Part shown: positions 9,999-64,000 of the stretch, in pieces
How positions within the stretch are numbered: position 1 is the stretch's first letter
Layout of the letters: the number at the start of each line of letters is the position of its first letter
Origin: Pegea sp. RAD2-039
Taxonomy: Eukaryota > Chordata > Thaliacea > Salpida > Salpidae
Direction: 5' to 3'
Assembly (NCBI GenBank): GCA_034620365.1
Contig: JAQGEQ010000270.1
Span: 62,001 to 126,000 of the forward strand
DNA: 64,000 bases
Program-made: the position numbers and the translations under genes
Notes under the pieces: generated by a model
The model's database searches: none
What the model was told of the DNA's origin: nothing
Seen by the model: the letters and a program-made list of their open reading frames with translations, nothing else

Positions 9999-10628
9999 TT
10001 GATGATGTCTACTTGTGTTTTGAAAGGCATTTTTTGCCTATTTTTTTTCAACTTTGCTCAAGGGATGTATTTCAATCTACCAATAAACAGTGAAAAATGT
10101 TTACGTGAAGAAATTCATGAGGGTGTGCTTGTAAAAGGTGAATATGAAATATCTGCTGCTCCAGTACAAGATGCCAAAGTCCATATAAAAGTAACTGATT
10201 CAAATGGACATGTCCTATATCAAAAAGAGGATGCCACAACTGGAAAGTTTGCCTTTACAACTGATGAATATGATATGTTTCAAATTTGTTTTACTAGTAA
10301 ATCACCAAGTAATATCAAAGCAATTCAAACAGTGAAACTAGCAATGAAGCGTGGATCTGAAGCTAAGCATATGGATGATTCTGAAGATTCAAAGCAGCTT
10401 AAACCATTAGAAACAGAGCTAGGAAGATTAGAAGAACTTTCTACATCAATTGCAAATGCATTCTTCTACATGAAAACTCGTGAAGAAGAAATGAGGGGTA
10501 CAAATGAATCTACTAACTCACGTGTTCTCTACTTTAGTGCATTTTCAATGCTATGCTTGGTTGGCTTGGCTACATGGCAAGTGCTTTACCTTCGCAAGTT
10601 TTTCAAATCTAAGAAGCTCATTGAATAA
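9999..10628 (+). CDS. TMED10: TMED10, p24-delta family cargo receptor
   Basis: Type I membrane protein of the early secretory pathway that packages cargo into COPII/COPI vesicles. The 209-residue frame has a signal peptide (roughly residues 1-22), a GOLD domain beginning [12 protein letters not shown] with the paired cysteine in FQICF, a coiled-coil stretch (about 125-165), one membrane segment (about 176-197) and a short cytosolic tail with the FF motif and di-lysine end KSKKLIE, typical of COPI binding. Two in-frame ATGs lie at the start; either could be used. The coding region has no intron although every neighbour is multi-exon, so a retrocopy origin or intron loss is possible. The sequence is intact and looks functional. 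A good acceptor-like site (CTATTCAG) lies about 23 nt before the ATG, suggesting a 5'UTR intron or a spliced leader. Confidence 0.95.
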
Positions 10629-14966: not shown

Positions 14967-17825
14967 ATGGATAAAGCTGAAACAAAGCCGGTAACATTCA
15001 AAACTTTATATTATTGAATTATTTTCTGATTTAATATCGATTTTTACATCGCTTGAAATAAAATTTTTTTTGTTAAGGAGATAAAGAAAGAGGTTAAAGA
15101 AGGTATGACCTCTATGATTTTCTCAGTAAAAGAAAGTGTTGGAGTACTTGCTGAAGTACTTGAAGTATTCAAGGTTCAAAACACATTATTTTATTGACTA
15201 ATGATAATTAAAGAAGTATTTATTGTAAGTAAGACAAAATGTTTAAAAAATAGAACAACAAAATGTTAAAAGTTAAATAAATAAATCTATAAAAAGAAAT
15301 CTTTACAAAACTCCTTCTAACAGAGACATGAAATCAGCTTGAAACACATTGAGTCAAGAGTTTCACAGGCAAGCAACGATCATTATGAGTTCATCATTAG
15401 CTGCAACAGCACTGATGAAGAGCTTAATCCAGTTATATCAGCATTGAAACAACAGCTTGGAGTTAACGTGATTGTTTTATCTCGATCACCAACACAAGTC
15501 GGTTCAAGTCAGTAGTTATATTCAGATAGTTTTGCGTGACTAAAAACACGAACAATTCATAAATACCAACAACAATTTGATATTCTTCTTTCAGCTCCTT
15601 GGTTTCCTCGTCGTATCGAAGAGCTTGATCAATTTGCAAATCAAATATTAACCTACGGATCAGAACTGGATGCTGATCATCCGGTAGCTTCATCCACTTA
15701 CTTTTGTTTCAAGATTATCAAAAGACTTTCTACATTTAGGGATTTACTGATCCAGTTTATCGACAAAGAAGAAAGCAGTTTGCTGATATTGCTTTTAACT
15801 ATAAGTAGTAAGTTGAAACAAACGTTGTTAGCAAACTGAAAATTGTATTTAAGAAAGTTTTAAACAAGTAACTTGGTAGTTGATAACAAATATAAGTTAT
15901 TAAACGTTGAAGAAGTTGTTATTTTTGTTTTTAGTGGTGAACCTATCCCAAAAGTGGAATATACTGAGGATGAGACTAACACTTGGTAGGAAGATAAAAT
16001 TGTTCTAAGCATCTATTTTCTAAATAAAACTTTATGAAGTTTAGATCAATTAAAAACTGTTATAAATCTGAAGCTTCATAGTTATGATTAAATAGAAAAG
16101 ATTATTTATTGCAGTTAGTTTGTTAATAAATTGATTTGTCGCAGGAAAACTATATTCAACAAGCTGACTACATTATTTCCTACTCATGCTTGTCGAGAGT
16201 TCAATCGAATATTTCCGCTGCTTCGAGAAAATTGTGGAATGAGAGAAGACAACATTCCTCAACTGGAAGACGTTTCTCAATATCTGCAAAGTAAAAAAGC
16301 CTTCATCAATTTTTGGAACCATGCACTCAATAAAGTTAAACTGTTTTTATTTGCTTAGAAGTCACTGGTTTTCGTTTGAGACCAGTAGCTGGACTGCTCT
16401 CATCACGTGACTTTCTGGCCGGCTTAGCATTTAGAGTTTTTCATTCTACACAATACATCCGACATTCTTCTAAGCCTTTGTACACACCTGAACCGTACGT
16501 CAATCAGCAATTGCAACTTGATTTTGCAAACAAACTTAAATGAACTTGTTGTAAACAGGGATATCTGCCACGAGTTAATTGGACATGTCTCCCTTCTTGC
16601 CGATTCAACTTTTGCTCAATTTTCTCAGCAAATCGGACTCGCTTCACTAGGAGCTTCTGATGAGTGGATATTGAAGTTGGCAACAGTAAGCTTGCCTTTT
16701 CTCTGTTATCTACTCGTCTACTTGAATTTGTATTTTTTTAGTGTTATTGGTTTACTGTTGAGTTTGGTTTGTGTAAAGAAAATGGTGAAATCAAAGCTTT
16801 TGGGGCTGGATTACTTTCTTCATTTGGTGAATTGGAGTACTGTCTTTCTGATAAACCTGAAATCAGAGACTTTGAACCGGATGTCACCGGCGATCAGGTA
16901 ATCTCAATTTTCTACTTTTTTTATAAAAGTTGGCACGTTTTCATTTGATCTATTATGACAATGTTACTTTATTTGTGCTTGAGCAATCTCTTCTATGATC
17001 ATTTTTAAGACTTTATCTGATTTTGTTTGGCAGTCAGCAGTTGACTTAGTTTAGTTTAAAACTATTTTTGATCATTGTGAATTTCAAATAAATTTTAATA
17101 AATTCTTTTAGTTGCAAAATAAACTTGCAGATTTTAATTTAATTAAATCTCACTTGCTTTATTTCTAACTGATGTTACTCAATCTTTTGATCATTTGCAT
17201 AAAGTAAGCAAGTACTTTGCTTTCTACTTTTAAACAACGCTATATTTCTATTTGATAACTTTTTGATGAAACTTCTAAGAGTGTTTGAAACTTGCAGAAA
17301 TACCCAATCACAGAATATCAACCTGTGTATTTTGTTGCCAATAGTTTTGAGGATGCTAAACGTAAAATGCACGCCTTGTGTGAAAAGATAGATCGTCCAT
17401 TTGCTGTTCGATATAATCCTTATACAATGTCTGTCGATGTAATGGATACTAAAGAAAAAATAATAACTTTGACTTCAGATGTTCAAGGTGAGATTTAAGA
17501 TTGTTTTTTTGCGATCATATCTATAAATGATTTCATTAGTCGTTGAACTATATTTAAGAAGATTAAATTAATCAGTCATGATTGTTTTATCAGATTATAA
17601 AAGATTTTAACTAACTACTGATCTTTTGTTTCAAATGTTTCATTTAATTTGTTGAATAGTTTATGAAAATATTTACATAGTTTTAGTTGCTGATAGATAA
17701 AATGATTTAACATTTTTAGATATAGTTTACAAACACTCTTGTAATTAGTGATCCTTTTTTAATAAAACTATTTCTTGACAGGTGAGCTTTCTATCTTACG
17801 GGAAGCGTTTAAACGTTTATCTTGA
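14967..17825 (+). CDS. PAH: Phenylalanine 4-hydroxylase, copy 1 (plus strand)
   Basis: Iron- and tetrahydrobiopterin-dependent enzyme converting phenylalanine to tyrosine in the cytosol. Twelve exons join in frame to about 436 residues: 14967-14990, 15078-15173, 15324-15507, 15595-15683, 15740-15807, 15935-15985, 16145-16290, 16359-16494, 16559-16685, 16742-16897, 17298-17487 and 17782-17825. The start is a tiny exon, MDKAETKP. The ACT regulatory domain lies in exons 2-3 ([20 protein letters not shown]). The catalytic domain carries the iron ligands: two His in DICHELIGH and Glu in [15 protein letters not shown] is typical of PAH rather than tryptophan (PDTCHE) or tyrosine hydroxylase. The last exon gives the tetramerisation helix [14 protein letters not shown]. 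The exon 3 donor is ambiguous (15507 or six bases earlier); both keep frame. Exons 3-11 are nearly identical to copy 2; exons 1, 2 and 12 are not. Confidence 0.95.
15253..17496 (+). repeat. Left arm of a 2,244-bp inverted repeat covering PAH exons 3-11
   Basis: This segment reappears in reverse complement at 18648-20891. The sum of paired positions is 36,144 at every exon boundary from exon 3 to exon 11, so there is no net insertion or deletion over 2.2 kb, introns included. Only scattered single-base differences were seen, mostly intronic. Exonic differences noted (for example GAA/GAG and GCT/GCC in exon 10) are silent. The outer edge lies about 70 bp before exon 3 and the inner edge 9 bp into intron 11. 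Confidence 0.97.
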
Positions 17826-17896
17826 TGACGTCGTATATATCAATCATCAAAATGTAATTCTATAAAAAATATTTTTGTGGTATTTTCTTTTTCATA

Positions 17897-17902
17897 AATA
17901 AA
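17897..17902 (+). terminator. Candidate polyadenylation signal of PAH copy 1
   Basis: AATAAA about 70 nt after the stop codon, within the spacer unique to copy 1's side. Confidence 0.5.
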
Positions 17903-18104
17903 ATTTTCCTAGAATTTTACAAAGTGTAAAATGAAATTACTGAGAAAGTTTTACAGTAAGACTGATCTTTCATATATAAGATAAGCATTTATGTACAGAT
18001 TTATGACTTGATGAAGCTTATAGGTTTATGAATTAAATATTTTCCCCGTAAAATGAGCATTACAAATATTAAGTTCTATATAAAAAAGTAGCAAAAGAAA
18101 AACG

Positions 18105-18126
18105 TCACAGTTTATTACAACTGTGA
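18105..18126. repeat. Short hairpin near the centre of the PAH palindrome
   Basis: TCACAGTT, 6-nt loop, AACTGTGA: a perfect 8-bp stem. The centre of symmetry of the large inverted repeat is at 18072, about 40 bp away. It lies between the two convergent genes. Confidence 0.6.
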
Positions 18127-18423
18127 TAATAATGTGATGATGAATTGTATTGATCGTCTTTTTAAAAGTTGAAAGCAGGAAATTTTGAAATTGCCCACAA
18201 GATAGGTACTTATGAATTATAAATAGTACTTACAAATGATGGTTAATGATAAACAAACTGATTTATTGCTTTAGTGTCTACGAAAACAAAGTACTTAAAA
18301 AGATACCAGTGGATTAAATAGCTGCTAAGAATAAAATTATGAAACCAATACAATAATTAAAAAGATATAGATAAAGTATTTAAATAGAAAAATAGGTAAA
18401 GAGTAGAGATATTCCTTTTTTCC

Positions 18424-18472
18424 ATCTGATTTGTTTCCTTAAAAAAGGAAAACATCCCAAAACAAATCAGAT
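18424..18472. repeat. 13-bp perfect hairpin downstream of PAH copy 2
   Basis: ATCTGATTTGTTT at 18424-18436 and its exact reverse complement at 18460-18472. The loop contains an overlapping smaller stem (TTTCCTT / AAGGAAA). It lies about 40 bp past the copy 2 stop codon, in its presumed 3'UTR. It may be an old MITE remnant or a processing structure. Confidence 0.6.
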
Positions 18473-18513
18473 AATATAACCACTTTAAGCAAAGGAAAAA
18501 TTTTACCCAATTC

Positions 18514-21344
18514 TTAAAGTAGTCTTTCTAATGCATCTTTAAGAGTTGAGAGTTCTCCTAGAGTGACAAAAACACAAAAAGTTAATAATTTACAATCACA
18601 ACAACAACTTGTACATTGATTTAACATATGATAACAAATAAAAAATAAAATCTCACCTTGAACATCTGAAGTCAAAGTTATTATTTTTTCTTTAGTATCC
18701 ATTACATCGACAGACATTGTATAAGGATTATATCGAACAGCAAATGGACGATCTATCTTTTCACACAAGGCATGCATTTTACGTTTAGCATCCTCAAAAC
18801 TATTGGCAACAAAATACACAGGTTGATATTCTGTGATTGGGTATTTCTGCAAGTTTCAAACACTCTTAGAAGTTTCATCAAAAAGTTATCAAAAAGAAAT
18901 ATAGCGTTGTTGAGAAGTAGAAAGTAAAGTACTTGCTTACTTTATGCAAATGATCAAAAGATTGAGAAACATCAGTTAGAAATAAAGCAAGTGAGATTTA
19001 ATTAAATTAAAATCTGCAAGTTTATTTTGCAACTAAAAGAATTTATTAAAATTTATTTGAAATTCACAATGATCAAAAATAGTTTTAAACTAAACTAAGT
19101 CAACTGCTGACTGCCAAACAAAATCAGATAAAGTCTTAATAATGATCATAGAAGAGATTGCTCAAGCACAAATAAAGTAACATTGTCATAATAGATCAAA
19201 TGAAAACGTGCCAACTTTTATAAAAAAAGTAGAAAATTGAGATTACCTGATCGCCGGTGACATCCGGTTCAAAGTCTCTGATTTCAGGTTTATCAGAAAG
19301 ACAGTACTCCAATTCACCAAATGAAGAAAGTAATCCGGCCCCAAAAGCTTTGATTTCACCATTCTCTTTACACAAACCAAACTCAACAGTAAACCAATAA
19401 CACTAAAAAAATACAAATTCAAGTAGACGAGTAGATAACAGGGAAAAGGCAAGCTTACTGTTGCCAACTTCAATATCCACTCATCAGAAGCTCCTAATGA
19501 AGCGAGTCCGATTTGCTGAGAAAATTGAGCAAAAGTTGAATCGGCAAGAAGGGAGACATGTCCAATTAACTCGTGGCAGATATCCCTGTTTACAACAAGT
19601 TCATTTAGGTTTGTTTGCAAAATCAAGTTGCAATTGCTGATTGACGTACGGTTCAGGTGTGTACAAAGGCTTAGAAGAATGTCGGATGTATTGTGTAGAA
19701 TGAAAAACTCTAAATGCTAAGCCGGCCAGAAAGTCACGTGATGAGAGCAGTCCAGCTACTGGTCTCAAACGAAAACCAGTGACTTCTAAGCAAATAAAAA
19801 CAGTCTAACTTTATTGAGTGCATGGTTCCAAAAAATGATGAAGGCTTTTTTACTTTGCAGATATTGAGAAACGTCTTCCAGTTGAGGAATGTTGTCTTCT
19901 CTCATTCCACAATTTTCTCGAAGCAGCGGAAATATTCGATTGAACTCTCGACAAGCATGAGTAGGAAATAATGTAGTCAGCTTGTTGAATATAGTTTTCC
20001 TGCGACAAATCAGTTTATTAACAATCTAACTGCAATAAATAATCTTTTCTATTTAATCATAACTATGAAGCTTCAGATTTATAACAGTTTTTAATTGATC
20101 TAAACTTCATAAAGTTTTATTTAGAAAATGGATGCTTAGAACAATTTTATCTTCCTACCAAGTGTTAGTCTCATCCTCAGTATATTCCACTTTTGGGATA
20201 GGTTCACCACTAAAAACAAAAATAACAACTTCTTCAACGTTTAATAACTTATATTTGTTATCAACTACCAAGTTACTTGTTTAAAACTTTCTTAAATACA
20301 ATTTTCAGTTTGCTAACAACGTTTGTTTCAACTTACTACTTATAGTTAAAAGCAATATCAGCAAACTGCTTTCTTCTTTGTCGATAAACTGGATCAGTAA
20401 ATCCCTAAATGTAGAAAGTCTTTTGATAATCTTGAAACAAAAGTAAGTGGATGAAGCTACCGGATGATCAGCATCCAGTTCTGATCCGTAGGTTAATATT
20501 TGATTTGCAAATTGATCAAGCTCTTCGATACGACGAGGAAACCAAGGAGCTGAAAGAAGAATATCAAATTGTTGTTGGTATTTATGAATTGTTCGTGTTT
20601 TTAGTCACGCAAAACTATCTGAATATAACTACTGACTTGAACCGACTTGTGTTGGTGATCGAGATAAAACAATCACGTTAACTCCAAGCTGTTGTTTCAA
20701 TGCTGATATAACTGGATTAAGCTCTTCATCAGTGCTGTTGCAGCTAATGATGAACTCATAATGATCGTTGCTTGCCTGTGAAACTCTTGACTCAATGTGT
20801 TTCAAGCTGATTTCATGTCTCTGTTAGAAGGAGTTTTGTAAAGATTTCTTTTTATAGATTTATTTATTTAACTTTTAACATTTTGTTGTTCATTTTTAGA
20901 TATAGATTAGATTATTTATATTTTGATTTACTAATCAAGATTAACAAAACACTTCTGATGATGCTTGAAAACTTGAAGAGTTTTAACAAATACTGTAATG
21001 CGTTCGTGTTCACTAGATTATATAATTTTCTAAAGTAGCTCTATAGGAAGTGAATTATCTAGTTTTATGTTATTTGATAAAATGTATCTTAATTGGAAAC
21101 TAGATTTTTATCAATCTATGTTATTTATACTCTGAGAAATTAAGCTTTACAAATATGAAGAGTTTATGTCGGATGCCTTAACTGTCTTACCTTAAAAACT
21201 TGCAGAATATTTTGTAATGCGCCGACTTCCTCCTTTGCTGAAATGATCAGTGAATGAAAAGAACTTTCCTGCAATTTTTCATTAACAAAAATTTTGAAAG
21301 TTGAAATTACTATTTGATATTACTTTATTTGTTTTTGAATACAT
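18514..21344 (-). CDS. PAH: Phenylalanine 4-hydroxylase, copy 2 (minus strand)
   Basis: Second phenylalanine hydroxylase, tail to tail with copy 1. Twelve exons in transcription order: 21324-21344, 21191-21268, 20637-20820, 20461-20549, 20337-20404, 20159-20209, 19854-19999, 19650-19785, 19459-19585, 19247-19402, 18657-18846 and 18514-18557. They join in frame to about 429 residues. Exon 1 encodes only MYSKTNK and is followed by a 55-bp intron; this start is the weakest part of the model. Exon 2 ([20 protein letters not shown]) aligns with the ACT-domain start of copy 1 but is strongly diverged. Exons 3-11 give the same protein as copy 1 as far as I can read, with the iron ligands intact. The last exon reads [14 protein letters not shown] against [14 protein letters not shown] in copy 1. 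No stop or frameshift was found, so the gene looks functional. Confidence 0.93.
18648..20891 (-). repeat. Right arm of the 2,244-bp PAH inverted repeat
   Basis: Reverse complement of 15253-17496 with only scattered substitutions. Examples from my comparison: two differences in about 50 bp of intron 7, two in about 34 bp before exon 7, one near 19138 in intron 10 and several in the last 60 bp before exon 11. Beyond 20891 the sequence departs from copy 1 within a few bases. Confidence 0.97.
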
Positions 21345-34943: not shown

Positions 34944-35419
34944 TTGAATTAAATAATTATCTTGGCTGTTTCTGTAGATTTGCTTTTGAACAGTATTTTT
35001 CATAAAATATCATTTAGTGTTTTCAATTAATCTCTCATAAATCAAATTGAAGAATTATTTGATAAATATAGAGAACTACAAATCACAATTGCAAATATTT
35101 TATGTCTTATGAAATGGTTTTGATGAATTTTAATTATATTAGATGGAAGTGATAAATAGACATTTATGAATTTAAAAACTCCTGGTTGGTTTTGTATAAA
35201 AATCAACAGATAGTTACAAGGAAGCCCTTAAAAGTTTGAACAATATTTGATGGTACTATAATTACCATATCACTTTAGTGACAAACTACAATTTCGCCCA
35301 TTTGCAACTATCTACATTTAATAGTATTAAAAAAGCTCTTCTATAACACATGTTAGAACAATAATCAAGAAAATAGAGATTCCAAAAAGAAAAATTTCTT
35401 TTGAAGAAAGATTTAATAA

Positions 35420-37013
35420 GTAGGATAGCAAAAGGAAAGTTCCAAGACCTTTGCTTAACACTTCCACAAATTTGGAAGAATGCTATTATTACTCCAATTT
35501 ATAAGAAGGGTCCCAGAAACACTGCACTTAACTACAGACCAGTTTCGCTGACTTCGGTTATCTGCAGAACTCAAGAACATATCATTCACAACCATATAAC
35601 TAGCCATTTGACGGAGCATCATCTAATATCTGATGCCCAGCATGGCTTTGTTAAGCAAAGATCTTCTTTGACTCAACATCTCACTTTTTTCAATGAGCTT
35701 ACAGCTCATTACGAAAGTAATACTCCATGTGACATCATATACCTTGATTTTGCTAAAGCGTTTGATTCTGTTCCACACAACAAGCTCATTACTGTATTGA
35801 AAAACATAAAAATCAGCAACTCTATCTTAAAATGGATTGAAGATTTCTTATCAGGTAGAACCCAACGAACCCGTGTAGAAAGATCTTTATCCACTCCTAG
35901 TAAAGTCACCAGCGGCGTTCCTCAGGGTTCCGTTTTGGATCCACTTCTCTTTTTAATTTTCATTGAAGACCTCATCAGAAGACTAATAACAGTAGGCAAT
36001 GTCAGTGTGTTTCTGTATGCAGATGACATCAAGCTATTATCTGGTTCTCACTCAAAACTCCAAACTGCACTAAACATTGTAGAAAACTGGTCTGCGAATT
36101 GGCAACTTAAAATCCAGCCAACAAAGTCTGAAGTTATAACATTCTCCCGTAAGCCAGCTGCCAACTTCAGCAACCAATACTACATCAATGGATCTATTCT
36201 TGAACGAGTATCCTCAGTCATAGACCTCGGCATTATTCTGACTTCTGACTTCAAATGGCACAGTTATGTTTCCAGAATCTTTGGAAAATCTATCAAGCTT
36301 GTGCACCTCATCATAAAGACTTTTAATTCTAAAGATCTATGGTTTTTCGTCAACCTTTTCAAACTGTACATACGCCCTATTCTTGAATACAATGTCAGTG
36401 CATGGATGCCATATCAAGTTGGTGATATCAGAAAAATCGAATCTGTTCAGGCAAAATTTACGAGATTGGTTTGCAGGAAACTTAATATCAAATAGGAGAG
36501 TTATAAGCATCGTCTCAGCTTCTTCAATCTAGATACTTTGGAAATCCGCAGAATTAAATACGACCTTATTCTGATTTTTAAAATTATTCACAACCTAATT
36601 GATCTTCAGTTTGATGACTTCTTCTCCATTAGTCCCTCCCTCAAGTTATATCAACTTAGAAGACATAAACTATATCTTAATAAGCCCACTCCACCAGCTA
36701 CGTTAACCAGGTTAAGTTTTTTCTCATACCGCACAATCAGTACATGGAACAATCTGCCATCAGAGATTGTCATGTCAAAATCACTTGTGTTGTTCAAAAA
36801 AAAGCTGAATTGTTATAATATCGCCAACATTGCCATTTCTAAACTCTGAATTTTTCTCTTTTACAATACTATGATTCTGTGTGATTCTTCATTGTCATAT
36901 GCTTTTTCGTTTACACGTCAAATAGATCTAATTTGTGAGAATGTGTGTTAGCGAGAGGCGCTCTCTTTAGGCACCCTCCTTCACATTTATTGTAATAAAT
37001 AAATAAATAAATA
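35420..37013 (+). mobile_element. CR1/L2/Jockey-type LINE, 5'-truncated, RT broken by one stop
   Basis: Non-LTR retrotransposon copy. The frame 35401-36495 encodes reverse transcriptase: IWKNAIITPIYKKG, NYRPVSLTS, DFAKAFDSVPHN, SGVPQGSVLDPLLF and the catalytic FLYADDIKLL. It is interrupted only by TAG at 36493-36495; the same frame then continues to 36849 (RTISTWNNLPSEIV end). A roughly 90-bp 3'UTR follows (TTTGTGAGAATGTGTGTTAG) with a tandem AAAT tail ending near 37013. The endonuclease and ORF1 are missing, so this is a dead 5'-truncated copy, but a rather young one. The left edge is approximate. Confidence 0.92.
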
Positions 37014-37303
37014 ACTTAAAGTGAGTTACATTATTTTATTTCTATTACTAGAGCCTATAATGCAAAATTTCTTTGACGCAAATTTTTGTCGTCAAATTTT
37101 CAAGAAGTTTAAAATACTCGTCGATGATCATAACTGTCATTGAAGAGAAATTTGGTTACAAGATTTTAGGTAAGAATGAATCGCTAGTCGCATACATTTT
37201 TCTAAATATGACTTCTGCTAAGAAGATGCGAGAAAGAAAAAGCGAAGGGCTCTTTAATCTTTTCAAATTATACATTATAATGTTAGTAAATGGATGCTAT
37301 ATC

Positions 37304-39851
37304 TATTTATTTATTTCAAAAAACGCTAGCGAGAGTGTCTGAAAAGAGTACCTCTCGCTAATACACATTCTCACAAATAACATTATATAAAATAATGACT
37401 ATTATATATAATTAAGAAACAAATATATACAGAAAAAGATGTAACATATAGAAATCCAGTAGTCCCTATACAATGTAACAATGAACAATTACATAAAATC
37501 TTAATAATCTAAACAAGAGAAAAATAATCACAGTTTAGAAACGACAAGTGTGGCAATATTAAAACTGTTCAACTTCAGATTAAACAAAACGAGTGATTCT
37601 GACATAACAATGTCTGATGGCAGCTGGTTCCAAGTATTAATTGTGCAGTCTGAGAAAAATTCGCTTTGATTAACGTACCAGTTAATATGAGTTTATGAAG
37701 GTGTAATGTATGTCATCTGAGCTGATATAACTTGAGGGAAGGATTAATGGAAAAGAAAGTATATGAGAAGATGTTCATAACTATCATATATAATATGTAG
37801 TCACCTGGATAGTAATTCTGTAAAAAAATGAGTTTATTAAGACACTGTTTCTAGAGCAAATAGAGTGATAAAGAGGAAGTAGTTTTCTTAAAAGTAAAGC
37901 TGGGATCTGATCTGGGGTGTTGGAAACTGATGATTTTAAAGAAGAAATAGCCTTAGCTACCATATCGACCTTTATGTCAAGATCTATCATCTCAGAGACA
38001 CTTGTAAGAATGTCGGAGCATTTATTGTTTAGCAATTCAGCTTTATTCTTTAGTTCCATCACAAGCTGGTTGCTATTATCAAGCAAGGGAGGTATTTGAC
38101 GTATCTCGCCTTAAGCTTTAAATATTTTCTTGCTAGGTCACGATAAGACTTCACTTTCTCTTCCTAACTAAATATTATAAATCTATTTCTTATAAACTAT
38201 ACAAAGATCCTTGTACAGAGATTTGATGGAAGGGTCTATTTCAGTTTGTTTGTATAGGAGGTTTTTTAAATGTCGTAAATTCCTTATATATTTGGGCAAA
38301 TGTGGTTTTTCGTTGACTCTATTAAAAGGTATGATTTTTTCAATTGACTCTTTAACGACGTTAGTATAACTTGAGTAAATAGTATTGATGTCTACGGTAA
38401 AAATAGGAATCCAGTCAACACCTGATAGAAACTTGTTAATACCATCATAATTTTGGACGATATAAATTCCGTTTGCCTGAAGTTTTAACGTTCATGGAAA
38501 AAGTTTGGTGGAGCTTGAATTCAATCATGCTGTGATCGTATGTCGGAGCAAAAAGTTGTTTTTGATCAACATAGATAATGTTCTCAGGGTTTAATGTAAT
38601 GAGAAGATCCAAACTATTACAAATATCTTGGGTTGGAAATGTAATCATCTGAGATAGGTTATTGGCATCAAGGAAGCTTACAAAGACATGACTTAGATGA
38701 CATAGGCTGAATTAGTACTATTGCTATCCAAGTTAAACGATTTTCCAATAAATACTAAATTCGGGTTATTCAAATCAATTTTACTAAAATTAAAACCGCC
38801 TAAAATATTTAATTCAGGAGATACAACACTCTTCAAAATCTTCAATAACGCCTTAATAGTAACCCCGTCATTACTTTTAGAGGATGGTATGTAGGTACAT
38901 ATAAAACGAGAACATTTGAACTTTTAGTAATGAAAATCGAAAACGATAATCTCAAATCCTGGAAAATTAATGGAATCGATTTGAGTTCTGGAGATCTTGG
39001 GTGCAAGCGATGTTTTGTAAATTACGCAAACACCGCCGTCTCTATCATACAGTCTATCACAACGCAAAACACAAAAAAGGTTACCATCAACCAGAAAAGA
39101 ATCAGGATACAACGGTTTCAACCAAGTTTCAGTAATAAAAACAAATGTGAAATCTTGAGAATGCAAAAGAGCTTTCAATTGTAAAAATTATGTTAATAAT
39201 CGACCGCGCGTTGAATGACATACCGAATGAATAGAAGAATTGTCTTTTTGACGCTTGTTAGGTTTGATTATGGGCTTTTGTGAATTGATATCTTGGGCTG
39301 GAAGGATGGTATCCACAATTGTGTGCCGAGAGAATGTGAAAATACAAGATGTGGGACCAGTGGTTATTTGTCACTTTCGTTTTTTGAAAAAACCATGATA
39401 ATTCTTAAGGCCCATGGTGGACCTCGAACTTTGTATTTAAAATCAGTTGGTTGTTCCTTCTGATTTCGGTTATACGCTTCTTTTAGAAGACGCTTATTTT
39501 CTAAGCGATCATCTTCACACATATCATGTGCTACTCTAATGCGTTCGAATTTTTTGTCAAGCTTTAGCTTATACATCTTGGCAAGAAACTTGCATTTGTC
39601 TCAACTTTCCTGAAAGGATACTTTCAACGGTCCTTGATAATCTGAGCTTTTTGCTCCAAGTCTAGTCATTGATACCCTTGAAACGTCCACAAAACTAAGG
39701 CTTTGAGAGCACATTTGATTACAAAACTTGCTGTCATCCTCTTTATCAGTCTTACAAACATTAAAGATGGTGACATTGTTTTCTCTGTGTTCAGTTCCAA
39801 AGTAAGTTTTTTGTTTGTGTCGGTGACCTTCTTGGCAAGAGGCTGCATCAT
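37304..39851 (-). mobile_element. LINE copy 2, 3' portion (ORF1 end, endonuclease, RT largely deleted)
   Basis: Same LINE family, minus strand; the 3' tail (TTATTTATTTC on plus) starts near 37304. In element order: the RNA-binding end of ORF1 (NNVTIFNV on about 39851-39630 and YKVRGPPWALRI at about 39420), the apurinic-type endonuclease (FVFITETWLKP, DRDGGVCVIY at 38924-39178; DLLITLNPENIIYVD and YDHSMIEF at 38445-38648), the start of RT (SNTPDQIPALLLRKL, 37784-38086), then the RT C-terminal end and 3'UTR (37304-37760). The RT core with YADD is missing, so an internal deletion has occurred near 37.78 kb. Several stops and frameshifts. Its ORF1 is split by another LINE (39852-40864) and continues at 40865. 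Confidence 0.85.
39847..39851. repeat. Left copy of putative target-site duplication (ATCAT)
   Basis: ATCAT, partner at 40865-40869, flanking the inserted LINE copy 3. Five bases can match by chance, but the position is exactly where the element's tail and truncated end lie. Confidence 0.55.
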
Positions 39852-40864
39852 TTATTTATTTATTTCAATAAATGCGAAGGAGGGTGCCTAAGGAGAGCAC
39901 CCGCCGCTAACACATATTCTCACAAATGACATCTATTAAGTTCGATATACAGAAAGCAAAAGATGTAGCACATGGCATTTCGGAAGTCCTCTAAACATAC
40001 TATATAGAATTATAATAATATTAAAAAAAGGAAAAATTTACAGTTTTGAAATGGCAATACTATAACCGTTAAACTTCTGCTTGAACAACGCGAGCGACTC
40101 CGACATGACAATATCTGATGGCAGCTGGTTCCAAGTACTAATTATGCGGTATGAGAAAAAATTAGCTTTGATTAATGTATCAGGTGATATGGGCTTATTA
40201 AGATGTAATGTGTGTCGCCTGAGTTGATATAACTTGAGGGAAGGACTAATGGAAAAGAAAGCATCGAACTGAAGGCCAATTAAATTATGGATAATTTAAA
40301 AAATAAGAATTAAGTCGTATTTAATTCGTCAAATTTCTTAAGTATCTAAATTGAAGAAGCTGAGACGATGTGTATAACTATCATATTTAATATTAAGTTT
40401 CCTTCATAATAATCTCGTAAATGTGGCCTGAACAGACTCGATCTTTTTAATATCACTAACTTGATATAACATCCATTCACTAACGTTGTATTCATGAAAT
40501 GGACGTACGTACAATTTGAAAAGATTGATAAAAAGTATGGATCCTTAGAATTAACGGTCTTTATAATAAGGTAGGCGAGATTTATTGACTTTCCAAATAT
40601 TTTAGAAACATAATTGTGCCATTTAAAGTCAGATGATAGAGTTATGCCGAGGTCTAGGACCGAAGATATTCACTGAATAATAAATCCATTGATGGAATAT
40701 TGGTTCAAGGAATTTGCAGCTGGTTTACGAGACAAATTTATAAGTTCAGACTGTGGGCTGGATTCTGAGCTGCCAAATTTAGTTTCTACAGTGTGTAATG
40801 TAGTTTGAAGTTTTAAAGAATAGCAAGATAATAGCTTGATGCTAGCATTTTTGTCGGAATAGAA
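39852..40864 (-). mobile_element. LINE copy 3, 5'-truncated, inserted in ORF1 of copy 2
   Basis: Minus-strand copy with its AAAT-type tail at 39852 and its truncated 5' end at 40864, exactly at a degenerate YADD region (reads FYSDKNASIKLL where copy 1 has FLYADDIKLL). It continues through SRKPAANSLNQYSINGF to the RT end and the common 3'UTR. The 5-bp sequence ATCAT occurs on both sides (39847-39851 and 40865-40869) and is the likely target-site duplication. Removing the insert places the two parts of copy 2's ORF1 side by side. Confidence 0.8.
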
Positions 40865-51068: not shown

Positions 51069-54000
51069 TTAGGGTAAATTTTCGGATGTGAAAGAGCTTC
51101 GAATCCTCAGAAGATCGAGACAAACTCGATGTCCATAAGTTTTGTTGTACCATTCAGGGTTTCGTCCCTTCATGTCAACCCGACAAATTCTGGTGATAGA
51201 ACACTCGTCAAGGGAGTTTGTACTAGGCTCAATGAAGTATCGTGACGTCAGCATCACTCCTCTGACGTCACCAATCATAGAAATGTTTTGTCCGGCTGAA
51301 ATTTCCACCACAGCAGCGCCACCTTGTGGAGTGACGTCAGTCCTCCAGGATCTGTGCAAATGAAAATAGATGAAACCCGGTTTCCTGTATTAGCGGAATT
51401 CCAAAATTATCAGTTTAATCTTGTGCAAACATATCTTCAAGTAATATAGTGATTACAATCATTCTGTCATGTTATCTTTAAATAAGTCGCACTAATACAA
51501 CGAGCTCCAACAATAACATTCTGGTTTGGACAAAAAATCATTTTTAATTTGGGGGCTTAATGGAAACATTTACTGAAATTGTGTTTGTTCAAAATCGGTA
51601 AGTGATTAATGAGAAATTTACCTCAACACACAGAAGTCTCTGGTTGGATGAGGAGGCATTTCTGATGAGACGATTTGGAAAAGTTGAGTTTTTTTATCTG
51701 GTTGTTGGATAACTTTCCATTCGCATAAGTCCTTGTCCCAAGTTTGTCTTTCATGAAGAATCCGCTCAAGTACTCGCTTCACAGGAGCCTTGACCCCATC
51801 GATTTTGCATCTCCACAATCGTAATGGATTTCCATCATTGATCTAAATAAAATATCAAAAGTTACAAAACTATCTTCATCACTATGGTGATGAAGATCTT
51901 CACCTTTTTGCACATCACTTCACATCCATTGATTGTTGTGTTGTTATGCCAACCAGCATTGCGGCCTTGTAATGTACGATGCTCGTCTCTTGGTCCTTGT
52001 GAGACTATCCTATCTACGTACGAATGGAACTCGTGCAGGAAACCAGCTTGATTTGTCGTCTCACAACCAATGACTTCAGGAGTCGAAAACCCGATTTCTG
52101 TCCCAAGTACATCATCAACTTGCTGCATTACAGAGATCCGACATTGTGTCATCGTATCTTCAGGTAACTGCAATTGAGAAGTCAACAGTCAAGTAAGTGT
52201 AAGAGAAAATTTGCAAAGAAATTGAAACTAAAGTAGTAAATAATTTTGTTTGATATTTATCAGGAAATTCGAAATGTAAGTTGGTTTAGCATCAACACAT
52301 AAGAGTACTTGTCACAAGTGGTCATGTCAAAAATAGAAAAAATATGGCAATAAAAATACAACAAAACTTCTACTGACCATAAACAATAGATGAACATTGT
52401 CTATCATAAACAAGATACATTTGTTTGCAATCAAGTTTTCATCTTTTTCTCGTTGTTCGAGACGCCCACTAAGATGCTGGCTACCTGATTTACTTCCCGG
52501 AGCCTTTCTAGATCTAGAAAATAATTTATTATTTACTATTTACAAATTTACTATTTTTGATTTGAACAAATATACTACAAAATATTACAAAATGATACAA
52601 ATTAAATAACAAATTCAATTTTTTTCAAGACGAAAAGAAGGCATTGCTGCAAATGAATGAACTAATATTACTTTTTAATTGATATTTTACAGTACTTTGT
52701 GGCTTTTTAACCACGAGCTTTTCATAATATAGTTATCAATTATACAAAGAGCTCGTTCCTACTTCAGCCTAATTTCATCAACTCATCAAACTTTTTAAAG
52801 AAACAAATTTTATTTGCACTTACTTTGGCGAAACTGAAGTTTGCGAGCTTCTGGATTGAAAGCAGAATAATGAAGGAGCAAAGCAAGTGGCAAGATTAGA
52901 TGACGTCATCTGATTCTCGCTACTATTAGATGCTACACAATTTAAGAAGCAGAGAAGAGTCATAAGAGCTTCTCGATTTTCATCTGGTAGTAGCATCACA
53001 GCTGCTTGCAGTGTCTGTAGTCTTAAGTTTTCAGGAACATCTGTAAGATACCGAGAATGAAAAATGATTTTGATTGGTTATTTGTCTGATTGACTCACGC
53101 AAAAAGATCCCAACAAAAGTATCATTTAGTTTTGAGGTCATCAATGAGTCTGGTAGCTCGCGGAAATACTGCTTCACCATGTCAGCTACATCATAAGCGG
53201 AACAATCGTCATAAAGATTGAATCTTCCAGTGGATTCACAACAGCAGCGTAACTTAGTGATTCGGGATTTAACACCCGGCTTGCGAAAGATGCCTTTCAG
53301 TGTGAGAGAAGTTTGGCGAAGATAAATAAGAGCTTGCAAGATGCAAGGTGGAAGAGCTTTTCCGCTTTCGCGAACATTTTCGATGAGTGGGACGCCAAAA
53401 ACACGTTTGTCTTTATAATCTGGTATCTTAACTTTACGTATGAAGCGAGGCAATGACCTTTGAAAAAACAGTTTACAATTTATTTACTTGTAGACAGAAA
53501 TTTGCGTACAACCCACCAGCCAGCGTTTTTGTTGTTTGATGGGGCATAACTTTCCATCAAAGCAGTTAGTTTCAATAAAGATAATCTTCGTAGCATCATC
53601 AACTGGCCTGCTGAGAGCTCATGTATATAGACAAGTGACACGGGTCGGATGTTGGAGGCAGATTTTTCTGTTGTGCTGATCTGGCGCTTGAGATTACAGC
53701 TGAAATTTTGCCAACTGAATAATGATCTGAAATATGACAAATGATGTTTTTATAAAGGATCTATACAAACAATCCTAAAAGAAATCTAAAATCAACTATA
53801 AGGCTATTATGATTTTGAAATCATTGCTGAATTTGACTTATACTATAATTTCAATAATTCATATTCGATTTGAAGTTCTTCGAAGTATCTAATAAAAATA
53901 TTTTTGGATAATTTAACAATTATATCTGACGTGATTTCTCTTATGATGCACACTTTTTATGTAAAATAATTTTACATCAACAAAACACCTGCATATATAA

Positions 54001-61500: not shown

Positions 61501-64000
61501 TCACTGATGTGTATCAGTGTAGAAACAAGCACGATACAAACAAATCTTCACAATAAAAAAAATAAGAAAAATAATCACACGCCTCATTGAGTTTTGCTGT
61601 AAACCATATAAGGATCCATTTCAACTAAATATTGTTAATTATTGTTGAGAACAAGCTTTATAATCCAATATTCAAATTAAGCATTTGTTTCTTTTTTCTT
61701 TACTAGCACTTAAGCTGCTGTCACATAAGATAAAACAGCTGATGCACTTACAGAGCCTTAGTGACCACATAAATAGTTTGAAAGATTTACATAAAATGCT
61801 ACTATTCAAGTTCTGATAAAACCTACAACATACTGACGTATGTTAGTTATGTGATTTCTATATATACAGATACAGAGTGAACGATATCAATGTGACCTTG
61901 AAGCTAATTTCAATCAGTGAACTTCAAACGACCGAATGGCTTATAATAAAGGGAAGTTTTTGTATATAATTTTACTATGGCTACAATTTTCAAAAAATGA
62001 CTTCATCTTATTGGCTGTATAGAGGATGATATATTCCATTCGATGATACACCCAAGCTCATTTGAGTAGAATATTTTTGATTGAAAATATATTCCTAAAT
62101 TAAATGAAATTTAATCTAAGGCAAACACTTGTGCTTACTTGTGCTTAATCTAAAGTTACTTAATCGACTGATTTGAAAATAAACAGACTTTGATAAAAGT
62201 GTTTAATACCAGTAAATTTTAAATTTTCAACATTTTTCTTCTCGTATTTGCATCATTCTTCTCTAAACTTAAATCTAAACTTGCTTCCTTTATTCAACCG
62301 TGAAAGAAGTGTTTAGAAGCATCGGAAACCCACTGTCAATATAGTGATGGTCTACTGAGCACAAGATACAAACATTAAAACTTCTTTCTATTTTCAATCA
62401 AACTGAAAAACTTGGATACCATTTTTCTTATCGTCAAAATGATGGTACTGGGTTTTAATGAAGAGTAAACACAATTCCAATGTTTGTTGGAGATAGTACT
62501 ACATAGGATTAGGTTGTAAAGATTCTTAAATTATCCAGTAGAGTTGTTGATGATTTCTTAAGACTGCTTAAATTCTTTTCTACCTAAGATAGTTAAAAGT
62601 CAAAAGATCGCCGCGTACTTCTTTGATTTTTAGTACTTTAGTCTTTCAAAGATCTACTATATCATTCAAAACCACTTGAAATGTAATTTACACATGCAAA
62701 GTAAGAAGCAACAACCGTTGTTTGAAGTTTCGGCAAATTTTAAAAAAGTCTAAATTATTCAATACCATGAAAAAAAGAAAAAAAAAACTTCGTCTAGGGC
62801 TAAACAATTGGCACAATTTTAATTGAAGTGGAAAATGTTCTATTGACTTTTTGGTTCCACTCCTGATTCGAATTTACGAATACTTTAGTTTCCGGCAAAT
62901 TAGAATTCAAAAGGTTGAATCAATCCAACAAAATGATCTGATTAATATACAGAATTTCATTTTGAAGAAGAGTTGTTTACGGCAACGACCACCCACATTT
63001 CGGTGATAAAGTGAAATCAAATTACTCTTCTCAAACTACTCCTTCTATCTTTTGGATTTGCTGCTGGATCTATTTGATACAAGTTTTGAACCGGCAAGAC
63101 ATTTGTTTTCAGGTTTTAATCAACATCTTTTGGTTTACTATCAACACTCATTATTTATGAATTCGTCAATAAGTGATAGAATTAGTTAGCAAAAAAAAAC
63201 TTCAAAAAATAAATGAATCAAAAAAATATTTATAATCGTTAACAGAAAAGTCAAATTGAAATCGATATTTAATTGAATTTGGTTTGCTTTGAGTTACCTC
63301 TGAAATAATTTGGCTTTTTACTAATTTACAATTTTCTGCTAAATAAATTTCAAGTTATTTATTATTTTACAAACTTAATTTGATTGAAACAATCAAGTCA
63401 ACAAGCACCAGAAAACACCAAACTTGGTGTTACAAACGTGGGTACAGCAAGCATTTAAGGTGAGAAAGTTGCTGATTGGAATTGAGTGAATGGTAGATAG
63501 TTGATGAAACATTTTTTGATTTAATGACAAATTAATTGTCATCGGTATAATAAAACTCTTTCTTTTATAGAACACACGTGAAACTTTCACATCGAGGTCA
63601 ACTACAGTCTTTGTTAATGCCTCTTATATATATTTTAGATTATATTTACATCTCAAGTAAAATAAGTAGTATGATTAAAGTGAACATTTTGAAGTAGCTT
63701 CTTTTTTACTCTATAAATCTGATATTTATTTCATTTGTCGTAGCTGTCGCTGCTTTAAATAAATATTTTTTGACTGTAAGTGTAATTATAATTAAATTAG
63801 GATTTGTTCACAAGTATAATACGTTCAGAAGATCTTGTTTTAATGCAAAATGAGATGTTAAGTGACACATAATGAGAGTAAGTGGTTTGTTTGTGATCAA
63901 ATACTCCTTGAAATCATTTCAGAACTATTAATGATTTCAGCCATAAAGTGTGCTTACAATGACTGAAGCAATAACAGTTTGAGATAATGGGCTGTTGTAA
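58589..64000. other. 5' flank of DLC and intergenic DNA to the window edge
   Basis: About 5.4 kb with no exon chain, repeat family or RNA gene that I can support. It includes a run of nine C (59690-59698) and a run of A and G near 60846. An upstream SAM-bearing exon of DLC was looked for and not seen. Minus-strand frames at 60211-60504, 60902-61105 and 63393-63590 are not recognised. Confidence 0.5.

Follow-up and report, generated by a model that had tools for sequence, protein, structure and literature searches.

Tail-to-tail phenylalanine hydroxylase genes in a salp with diverged ends and a common core probably homogenised by gene conversion

In a 64,000-nucleotide stretch of the genome of the salp Pegea sp. 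RAD2-039 (hereafter the window; positions 62001–126000 of the 1.41-Mb contig JAQGEQ010000270.1, in the 105.7-Mb, 387-contig assembly GCA_034620365.1; G+C 28.9%), two genes for phenylalanine 4-hydroxylase (PAH) are arranged tail to tail, gene A on the forward and gene B on the reverse strand. Their exons 3–11, together with the introns between them, form the arms of a near-perfect inverted repeat, whereas their exons 2 and 12 have diverged to near-saturation at silent sites. Very probably, this arrangement reflects an older inverted duplication followed by ectopic gene conversion that homogenised exons 3–11, as an initial annotation of the same DNA had proposed. The last exons of both genes lie in the spacer between the arms, and the sequence of a relative offers a tentative hint that they might have been exchanged.

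The genes and the inverted arms

Both genes were modelled from homology and splice signals, and each runs from start to stop through 12 coding exons with GT...AG introns, bearing out the paralogous pair recognised in the initial annotation. In window coordinates, gene A (14967..17825, + strand; open frame of 436 residues) comprises exons 1–6 at 14967–14990, 15078–15173, 15324–15507, 15595–15683, 15740–15807 and 15935–15985, and exons 7–12 at 16145–16290, 16359–16494, 16559–16685, 16742–16897, 17298–17487 and 17782–17825. Gene B (18514..21344, − strand; 429 residues) comprises exons 1–6 at 21324–21344, 21191–21268, 20637–20820, 20461–20549, 20337–20404 and 20159–20209, and exons 7–12 at 19854–19999, 19650–19785, 19459–19585, 19247–19402, 18657–18846 and 18514–18557. 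The last coding exons of the two genes are 688 bp apart. The first two exons of B are matched by a relative from the protein search described below, P0001, which backs exon 1 with the start MKTNKE against MYSKTNKE in B.

In the NCBIfam model for tetrameric phenylalanine 4-monooxygenase, A, the one of the two proteins that was run, scores 707.5 against a cut-off of 704.8, and in the rival tryptophan and tyrosine models it reaches 583.1 (cut-off 705.5) and 536.5 (cut-off 654.65). The Pfam Biopterin_H domain is present in both proteins; the ACT domain scores 27.4 in A (residues 22–83), above the cut-off of 27, and 25.0 in B (residues 12–76), which is below it, with E = 1.6e-5. The iron ligands of the PAH catalytic domain are His-His-Glu. 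The motifs DICHELIGH and YWFTVEFG occur in both models and, in B, are aligned with solved PAH chains, with which B residues 8–428 can be aligned. By these features A and B are animal-type tetrameric phenylalanine 4-hydroxylases, with activity and tetramer formation predicted, and both are presumably expressed. The combination of ACT and Biopterin_H domains is that of the metazoan tetrameric enzyme; the salp differs in having two tail-to-tail copies with one common core. More biopterin-hydroxylase exons are found on two other contigs of the assembly, C8 and C84.

The arms of the inverted repeat (15253..17496, + strand, and 18648..20891, − strand) measure 2,244 bp each and carry exons 3–11 with their introns. 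Compared base by base, they differ by 17 substitutions and no indel (99.2% identity), and at each of the 18 paired exon boundaries across exons 3–11 the two positions add up to 36,144 (e.g., 15324 + 20820 and 17487 + 18657), so that the gap-free register and sparse substitutions described in the initial annotation hold throughout. Four of the differences fall in the 1,147 exonic bases, all of them synonymous, and 13 in the 1,097 intronic bases. The 382-residue core is identical between A and B (382/382), with a synonymous divergence (dS) of 0.016 and a nonsynonymous divergence (dN) of 0. The arms reach 71 bp upstream of exon 3 and 9 bp downstream of exon 11.

The 17 differences are unevenly placed: the arms match perfectly over their initial 761 bp, which take in introns 3–5 (15253..16013, + strand, paired with 20131–20891), and all differences lie within the other 1,483 bp. 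When the differences were redealt within exons and introns in 20,000 draws, a difference-free gap of at least 761 bp arose somewhere in the arm with P = 0.019, and one of the same length at the left arm end with P = 0.00055, that end having been picked after the data were seen. The identical sub-tract is probably the latest conversion. Because the differences cluster in this manner, at least two episodes of conversion are likely, the latest extending over about the left third of the arm.

Self-comparison of the window yields one strong inverted pair, and a search of the 105.7-Mb assembly, which skips very common words, finds the arm at only two places, plus a 91-bp match (77%) on contig C8. 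Among the ten inverted pairs of at least 300 bp in 264 kb (the window and a further 200 kb of the same contig), the PAH arms alone have at least 95% identity; this sample is 0.25% of the genome and gives no genome-wide rate. The next pair by length, at 36.0–40.8 kb, has 77% identity and overlaps a reverse-transcriptase reading frame.

Diverged ends and the histories of the segments

Outside the arms the resemblance between A and B falls away sharply. Exon 2 of A (15078..15173, + strand) and of B (21191..21268, − strand) have 12 of 26 residues in common, with a proportion of silent differences (pS) of 0.81 over 17.2 silent sites and of nonsilent differences (pN) of 0.40. For exon 12 (17782..17825, + strand, in A; 18514..18557, − strand, in B) the figures are 8 of 14 residues in common, 21 of 44 bases unlike, pS 0.97 over 10.8 silent sites and pN 0.31. 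Silent sites in both exons are near or past saturation, both values exceeding the range of the correction and being based on few sites. Intron 2 (150 bp in A, 370 bp in B) and intron 11 (294 bp in A, 99 bp in B) are of unequal length and unalignable in the parts outside the arms, and a permissive blastn comparison of the flanks (2.3–2.4 kb on the 5' side, 0.6 kb on the 3' side) found nothing better than a 17-bp match (94%, E = 0.084). In outline the contrast between core and surroundings is as the initial annotation had described it.

A was used as the query in a protein search, in which the 7,987 candidates with most words in common were scored and the best 120 listed. Among these, P0001 is 95% identical to A and P0003–P0005 are 80–82% identical; among the named matches, three tunicates lead in identity, namely Ciona intestinalis (71%), Phallusia mammillata (70%) and Clavelina lepadiformis (68%). 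Two longer records score higher at lower identity, one of 674 residues from a turtle (second, 58%) and one of 749 residues from a nematode (sixth, 50%), and these leave the placement among tunicates unchanged. The open frame of P0001 has 427 residues and sits on a contig of 1,542 bases; the sequence is probably RNA-derived, because a contig of this length is too small for introns in the number that a PAH gene has. The database merges sequences at 90% identity or more, and P0001, with nine members, may conceal further variants. A search with residues 1–60 of B returned P0001 alone (one match among six candidates); one for fragments that start like A or end like B found no match in its single candidate and is uninformative.

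The segments were then placed in separate trees, as the initial annotation had suggested, the rows being A, B and a further 19 relatives from the list of 120 (21 in all), and residues were counted in A, B and 13 of the 120. P0015 was omitted from both as a probable chimera: it has a different start on a core that, judged by eye, matches P0005 over a long stretch, and such a probable artefact of assembly also counsels caution over P0001.

In the tree of exons 1–2, B and P0001 are joined with support of 100/97, and approximately unbiased (AU) tests reject both the pairing of A with B (p-AU 0.0086) and that of A with P0001 (p-AU 0.0086). In exon 2, P0001 has 19 of 26 residues in common with B as against 12 of 26 with A, whose exon 2 is of the P0003/P0004 type (17–18 of 26 residues in common). 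The core tree unites A, B and P0001 with support of 100/99; as A and B are identical here, the pairing of the three was judged by residue counts, P0001 departing at 10 of 382 residues from the core that A and B share. In exon 12, P0001 has 13 of 14 residues in common with A and 8 of 14 with B; the 15 columns of this exon are too few for a tree, and its age rests on pairwise counts and silent-site saturation. P0003 and P0004 have 11 of 14 residues of exon 12 in common with A and likewise with P0001, and 7 of 14 with B. The three segments thus give three different pairings, those of exon 2 and the core being well supported and that of exon 12 resting on 14 residues.

Older duplication, later conversion and their alternatives

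Because the pairings of exon 2 and the core conflict, the duplication can be placed before the split from the lineage of P0001, and the homogenisation of the core after it. Were the split of the two cores as old as that of exon 2, at least about 10 residue differences would be expected, as against the none seen (Poisson probability about 5e-5). Gene conversion, a recombination-based process, is the natural cause, we infer, because the introns too have been homogenised, and the indel-free register and the way in which the 17 differences cluster match conversion tracts. An inverted duplication would first have given rise to two tail-to-tail PAH genes before the split from the lineage of P0001; ectopic conversion between the arms would then have repeatedly overwritten exons 3–11 with their introns, leaving both genes to encode one 382-residue core, and exons 1–2 and 12 with the outer introns and flanks, lying beyond the reach of homology, would have diverged to saturation. 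The pattern is that of concerted evolution: in the core, A and B are closer to each other within the species than either is to P0001, the duplication is older on the evidence of this one relative, non-coding sequence has been homogenised, and the edges are sharp.

The initial annotation had placed the edges just outside exon 3 and just inside intron 11 and had seen in them a means of leaving the regulatory N-terminus and the tetramerisation tail free to diverge. The positions hold, but the purpose does not follow. That exons 2 and 12 were spared does not require an adaptive explanation; conversion may simply have run out of homology, because introns 2 and 11 beyond the edges are unalignable and of unequal length. 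The regulatory domain, moreover, is not wholly free, because most of the ACT domain of A (residues 41–83 of 22–83) is encoded by the homogenised exon 3.

Several points weigh against this account. Both genes are known from the assembly and homology models alone, and P0001 is the single informative relative, compared as protein, a comparison that does not cover silent divergence. The test on exons 1–2 uses 43 alignment columns, with a branch to B and P0001 of 3.0 changes per column; two of the 18 inner branches are starred in the exon-2 test, and the pairwise identities had been seen beforehand. In its simple form the account is further strained by exon 12 of the Ciona protein P0007, which has 9 of 14 residues in common with B and 6 of 14 with A, and by a tree of exons 1–2 in which A and P0003–P0005 stand apart from B and P0001, which is not rejected (p-AU 0.40). 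Because of the latter, the duplication can be dated before the P0001 split and may or may not be older than the split from P0003–P0005. The same picture would result had a duplicated core been re-inserted between outer exons of older date, a route that needs more steps than conversion.

A recent simple duplication with ends altered afterwards, which the initial annotation had already argued against, would readily account for the high identity of the arms. It is rejected by the near-saturated silent sites of exons 2 and 12, as against 0.016 in the core, and by the tree of exons 1–2, in which exon 2 of B predates the species split; we consider it highly improbable. An assembly artefact, whereby one gene was doubled as a fold-back, deserves mention, palindromes being a classic place for such errors. 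It is judged equally improbable: the ends of the two copies are unlike, the arms differ at 17 positions within a contig of 1.41 Mb, a single location in the assembly was found for the spacer, and likewise for the 5' side of B, and both start types as well as the A end type recur in relatives. Conservation of the core by selection on the protein alone is ruled out, because the introns in the arms are as near-identical as 13 changes in 1,097 bases.

The spacer, comparable systems and implications

The spacer between the arms (17497..18647, 1.15 kb) holds the last exon of each gene, a feature that the initial annotation overlooked; the stretch 17497–18656, which covers it, occurs at a single place and in a single orientation in the assembly. 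The two last exons are 44 nt each and in the same phase, and a crossover between the arms would therefore invert the spacer and exchange them, with both genes left intact and in frame. Within it, the interval between the convergent genes (17826–18513) contains polyadenylation-like hexamers on both strands, five on the forward and two on the reverse. Transcription reading through both arms would yield a 2.2-kb RNA hairpin.

In P0001 a B-type exon 2 is combined with an exon 12 of A type, which is what a flip of the spacer would give. Three readings of its ends divide the probability among themselves, and all are compatible with conversion of the core. It is quite possible, if short of an even chance, that P0001 is an assembly chimera, in which the relative has both genes and the start of one was joined to the end of the other across their common core. 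If conversion continues in the relative, its two cores would likewise be long and near-identical, and P0015 in the same list of matches looks chimeric. On the other hand, a gene dominant in expression should supply both ends of a contig, and the mixture requires one end from each.

No less plausible is that no last exons were exchanged, either because conversion in the relative also covered exon 12 or because B's exon 12 diverged only once the species had split. Each of these variants takes one event, B sits on a long branch in exon 2, and the exon 12 of P0003 and P0004 sides with A and P0001 rather than with B, as counted above. Against this stand the 21 of 44 bases by which exon 12 differs between A and B, with silent sites saturated, and the 19 of 26 residues of the fast-evolving exon 2 that B and P0001 still have in common.

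The remaining reading, which we put forward as a tentative possibility, is that crossovers between the arms, alongside conversion, invert the 1.15-kb spacer and re-pair the 5' and 3' ends among species or individuals. It is favoured by the B-type start and A-type end of P0001 and by the frame-preserving position of both last exons in the spacer. A precedent may be found in the human CTRB1/CTRB2 pair, opposed paralogues that are 98% identical, in which, according to the parts of the sources drawn upon, an inversion exchanges first exons and complete copies are rebuilt (PMC4591017, PMC11937528); the exchanged exon there is the first, as against exon 12 in the PAH pair, where exchange is only suggested. 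A flip is opposed by its dependence on one P0001 contig, probably from RNA, whose ends short reads cannot phase over a near-identical 1.1-kb core, and by the shortness of exon 12, which is too short for a tree. For the PAH spacer a single orientation was found in this assembly; P0001 would fit the opposite one, but it may be a chimera. A review (PMC3924832) expects crossover products of the fly Hsp70 palindromes to be deleterious and marginal in evolution, but a flip at the salp locus leaves two complete genes. If flips do occur, the palindrome could conceivably act as a slow genetic switch, whereby the recombination that homogenises the core also flips the spacer, re-pairing two promoters and start exons with two last exons and 3' ends, and up to four PAH proteins with one core could result from the locus among individuals and species taken together. 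P0001 would then be a first glimpse of the flipped state.

Parallels to the homogenised core might be drawn with other inverted pairs, as far as the consulted portions of the literature extend. The Drosophila Amy-p/Amy-d and Hsp70 genes are mirror-image paralogues, closer within than between species, a pattern credited to ectopic conversion; in Amy the flanks evolve independently and concerted evolution is limited to the coding sequence (PMC3924832). The PAH pair is like these fly genes in its close linkage, mirror-image orientation and attribution to conversion, and unlike Amy in that introns are homogenised and coding ends escape. For inverted neighbours in Caenorhabditis such as hsp16, conversion has been preferred over recent duplication, with tracts extending into introns in some of the studies reviewed (PMC3966223); the PAH tract edge separates internal from terminal coding exons, and none such is described for the worm pairs in the portion of that review consulted. 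Among titles and abstract openings, with few subscription journals represented, none reported a duplication of PAH or another aromatic amino acid hydroxylase in tunicates or Ciona.

Elsewhere in the window, a reverse-transcriptase reading frame (RVT_1) at 35401–36495 overlaps the 77% inverted repeats at 36027–40841; stretches like these recur in the 200 kb that follow on the contig and probably belong to a repeat family. A reading frame of the emp24/gp25L (p24) family lies at 9999–10628 and a RhoGAP domain exon at 53031–53453. Farther along the contig, positions 289085–289681 and 292929–293529 form a 601-bp direct repeat with 99% identity, 3.2 kb apart (L028); the interval between them contains no stop-free stretch of at least 120 residues, and no obvious target-site repeat was found at their borders.

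Conversion between inverted paralogues is known biology, of which the PAH pair is a new and well-resolved case; what would be new is the possible exchange of last exons through a spacer flip, for which P0001 offers a hint. The locus can be seen as having several histories at once, with start exons that predate a species split, a core equalised later and last exons paired otherwise in a relative, and a PAH tree built on whole proteins would date the duplication as very young. If the flips are real, the locus would allow crossover to be measured against conversion in a small animal palindrome, and one could ask whether selection acts on the pairing of PAH ends.
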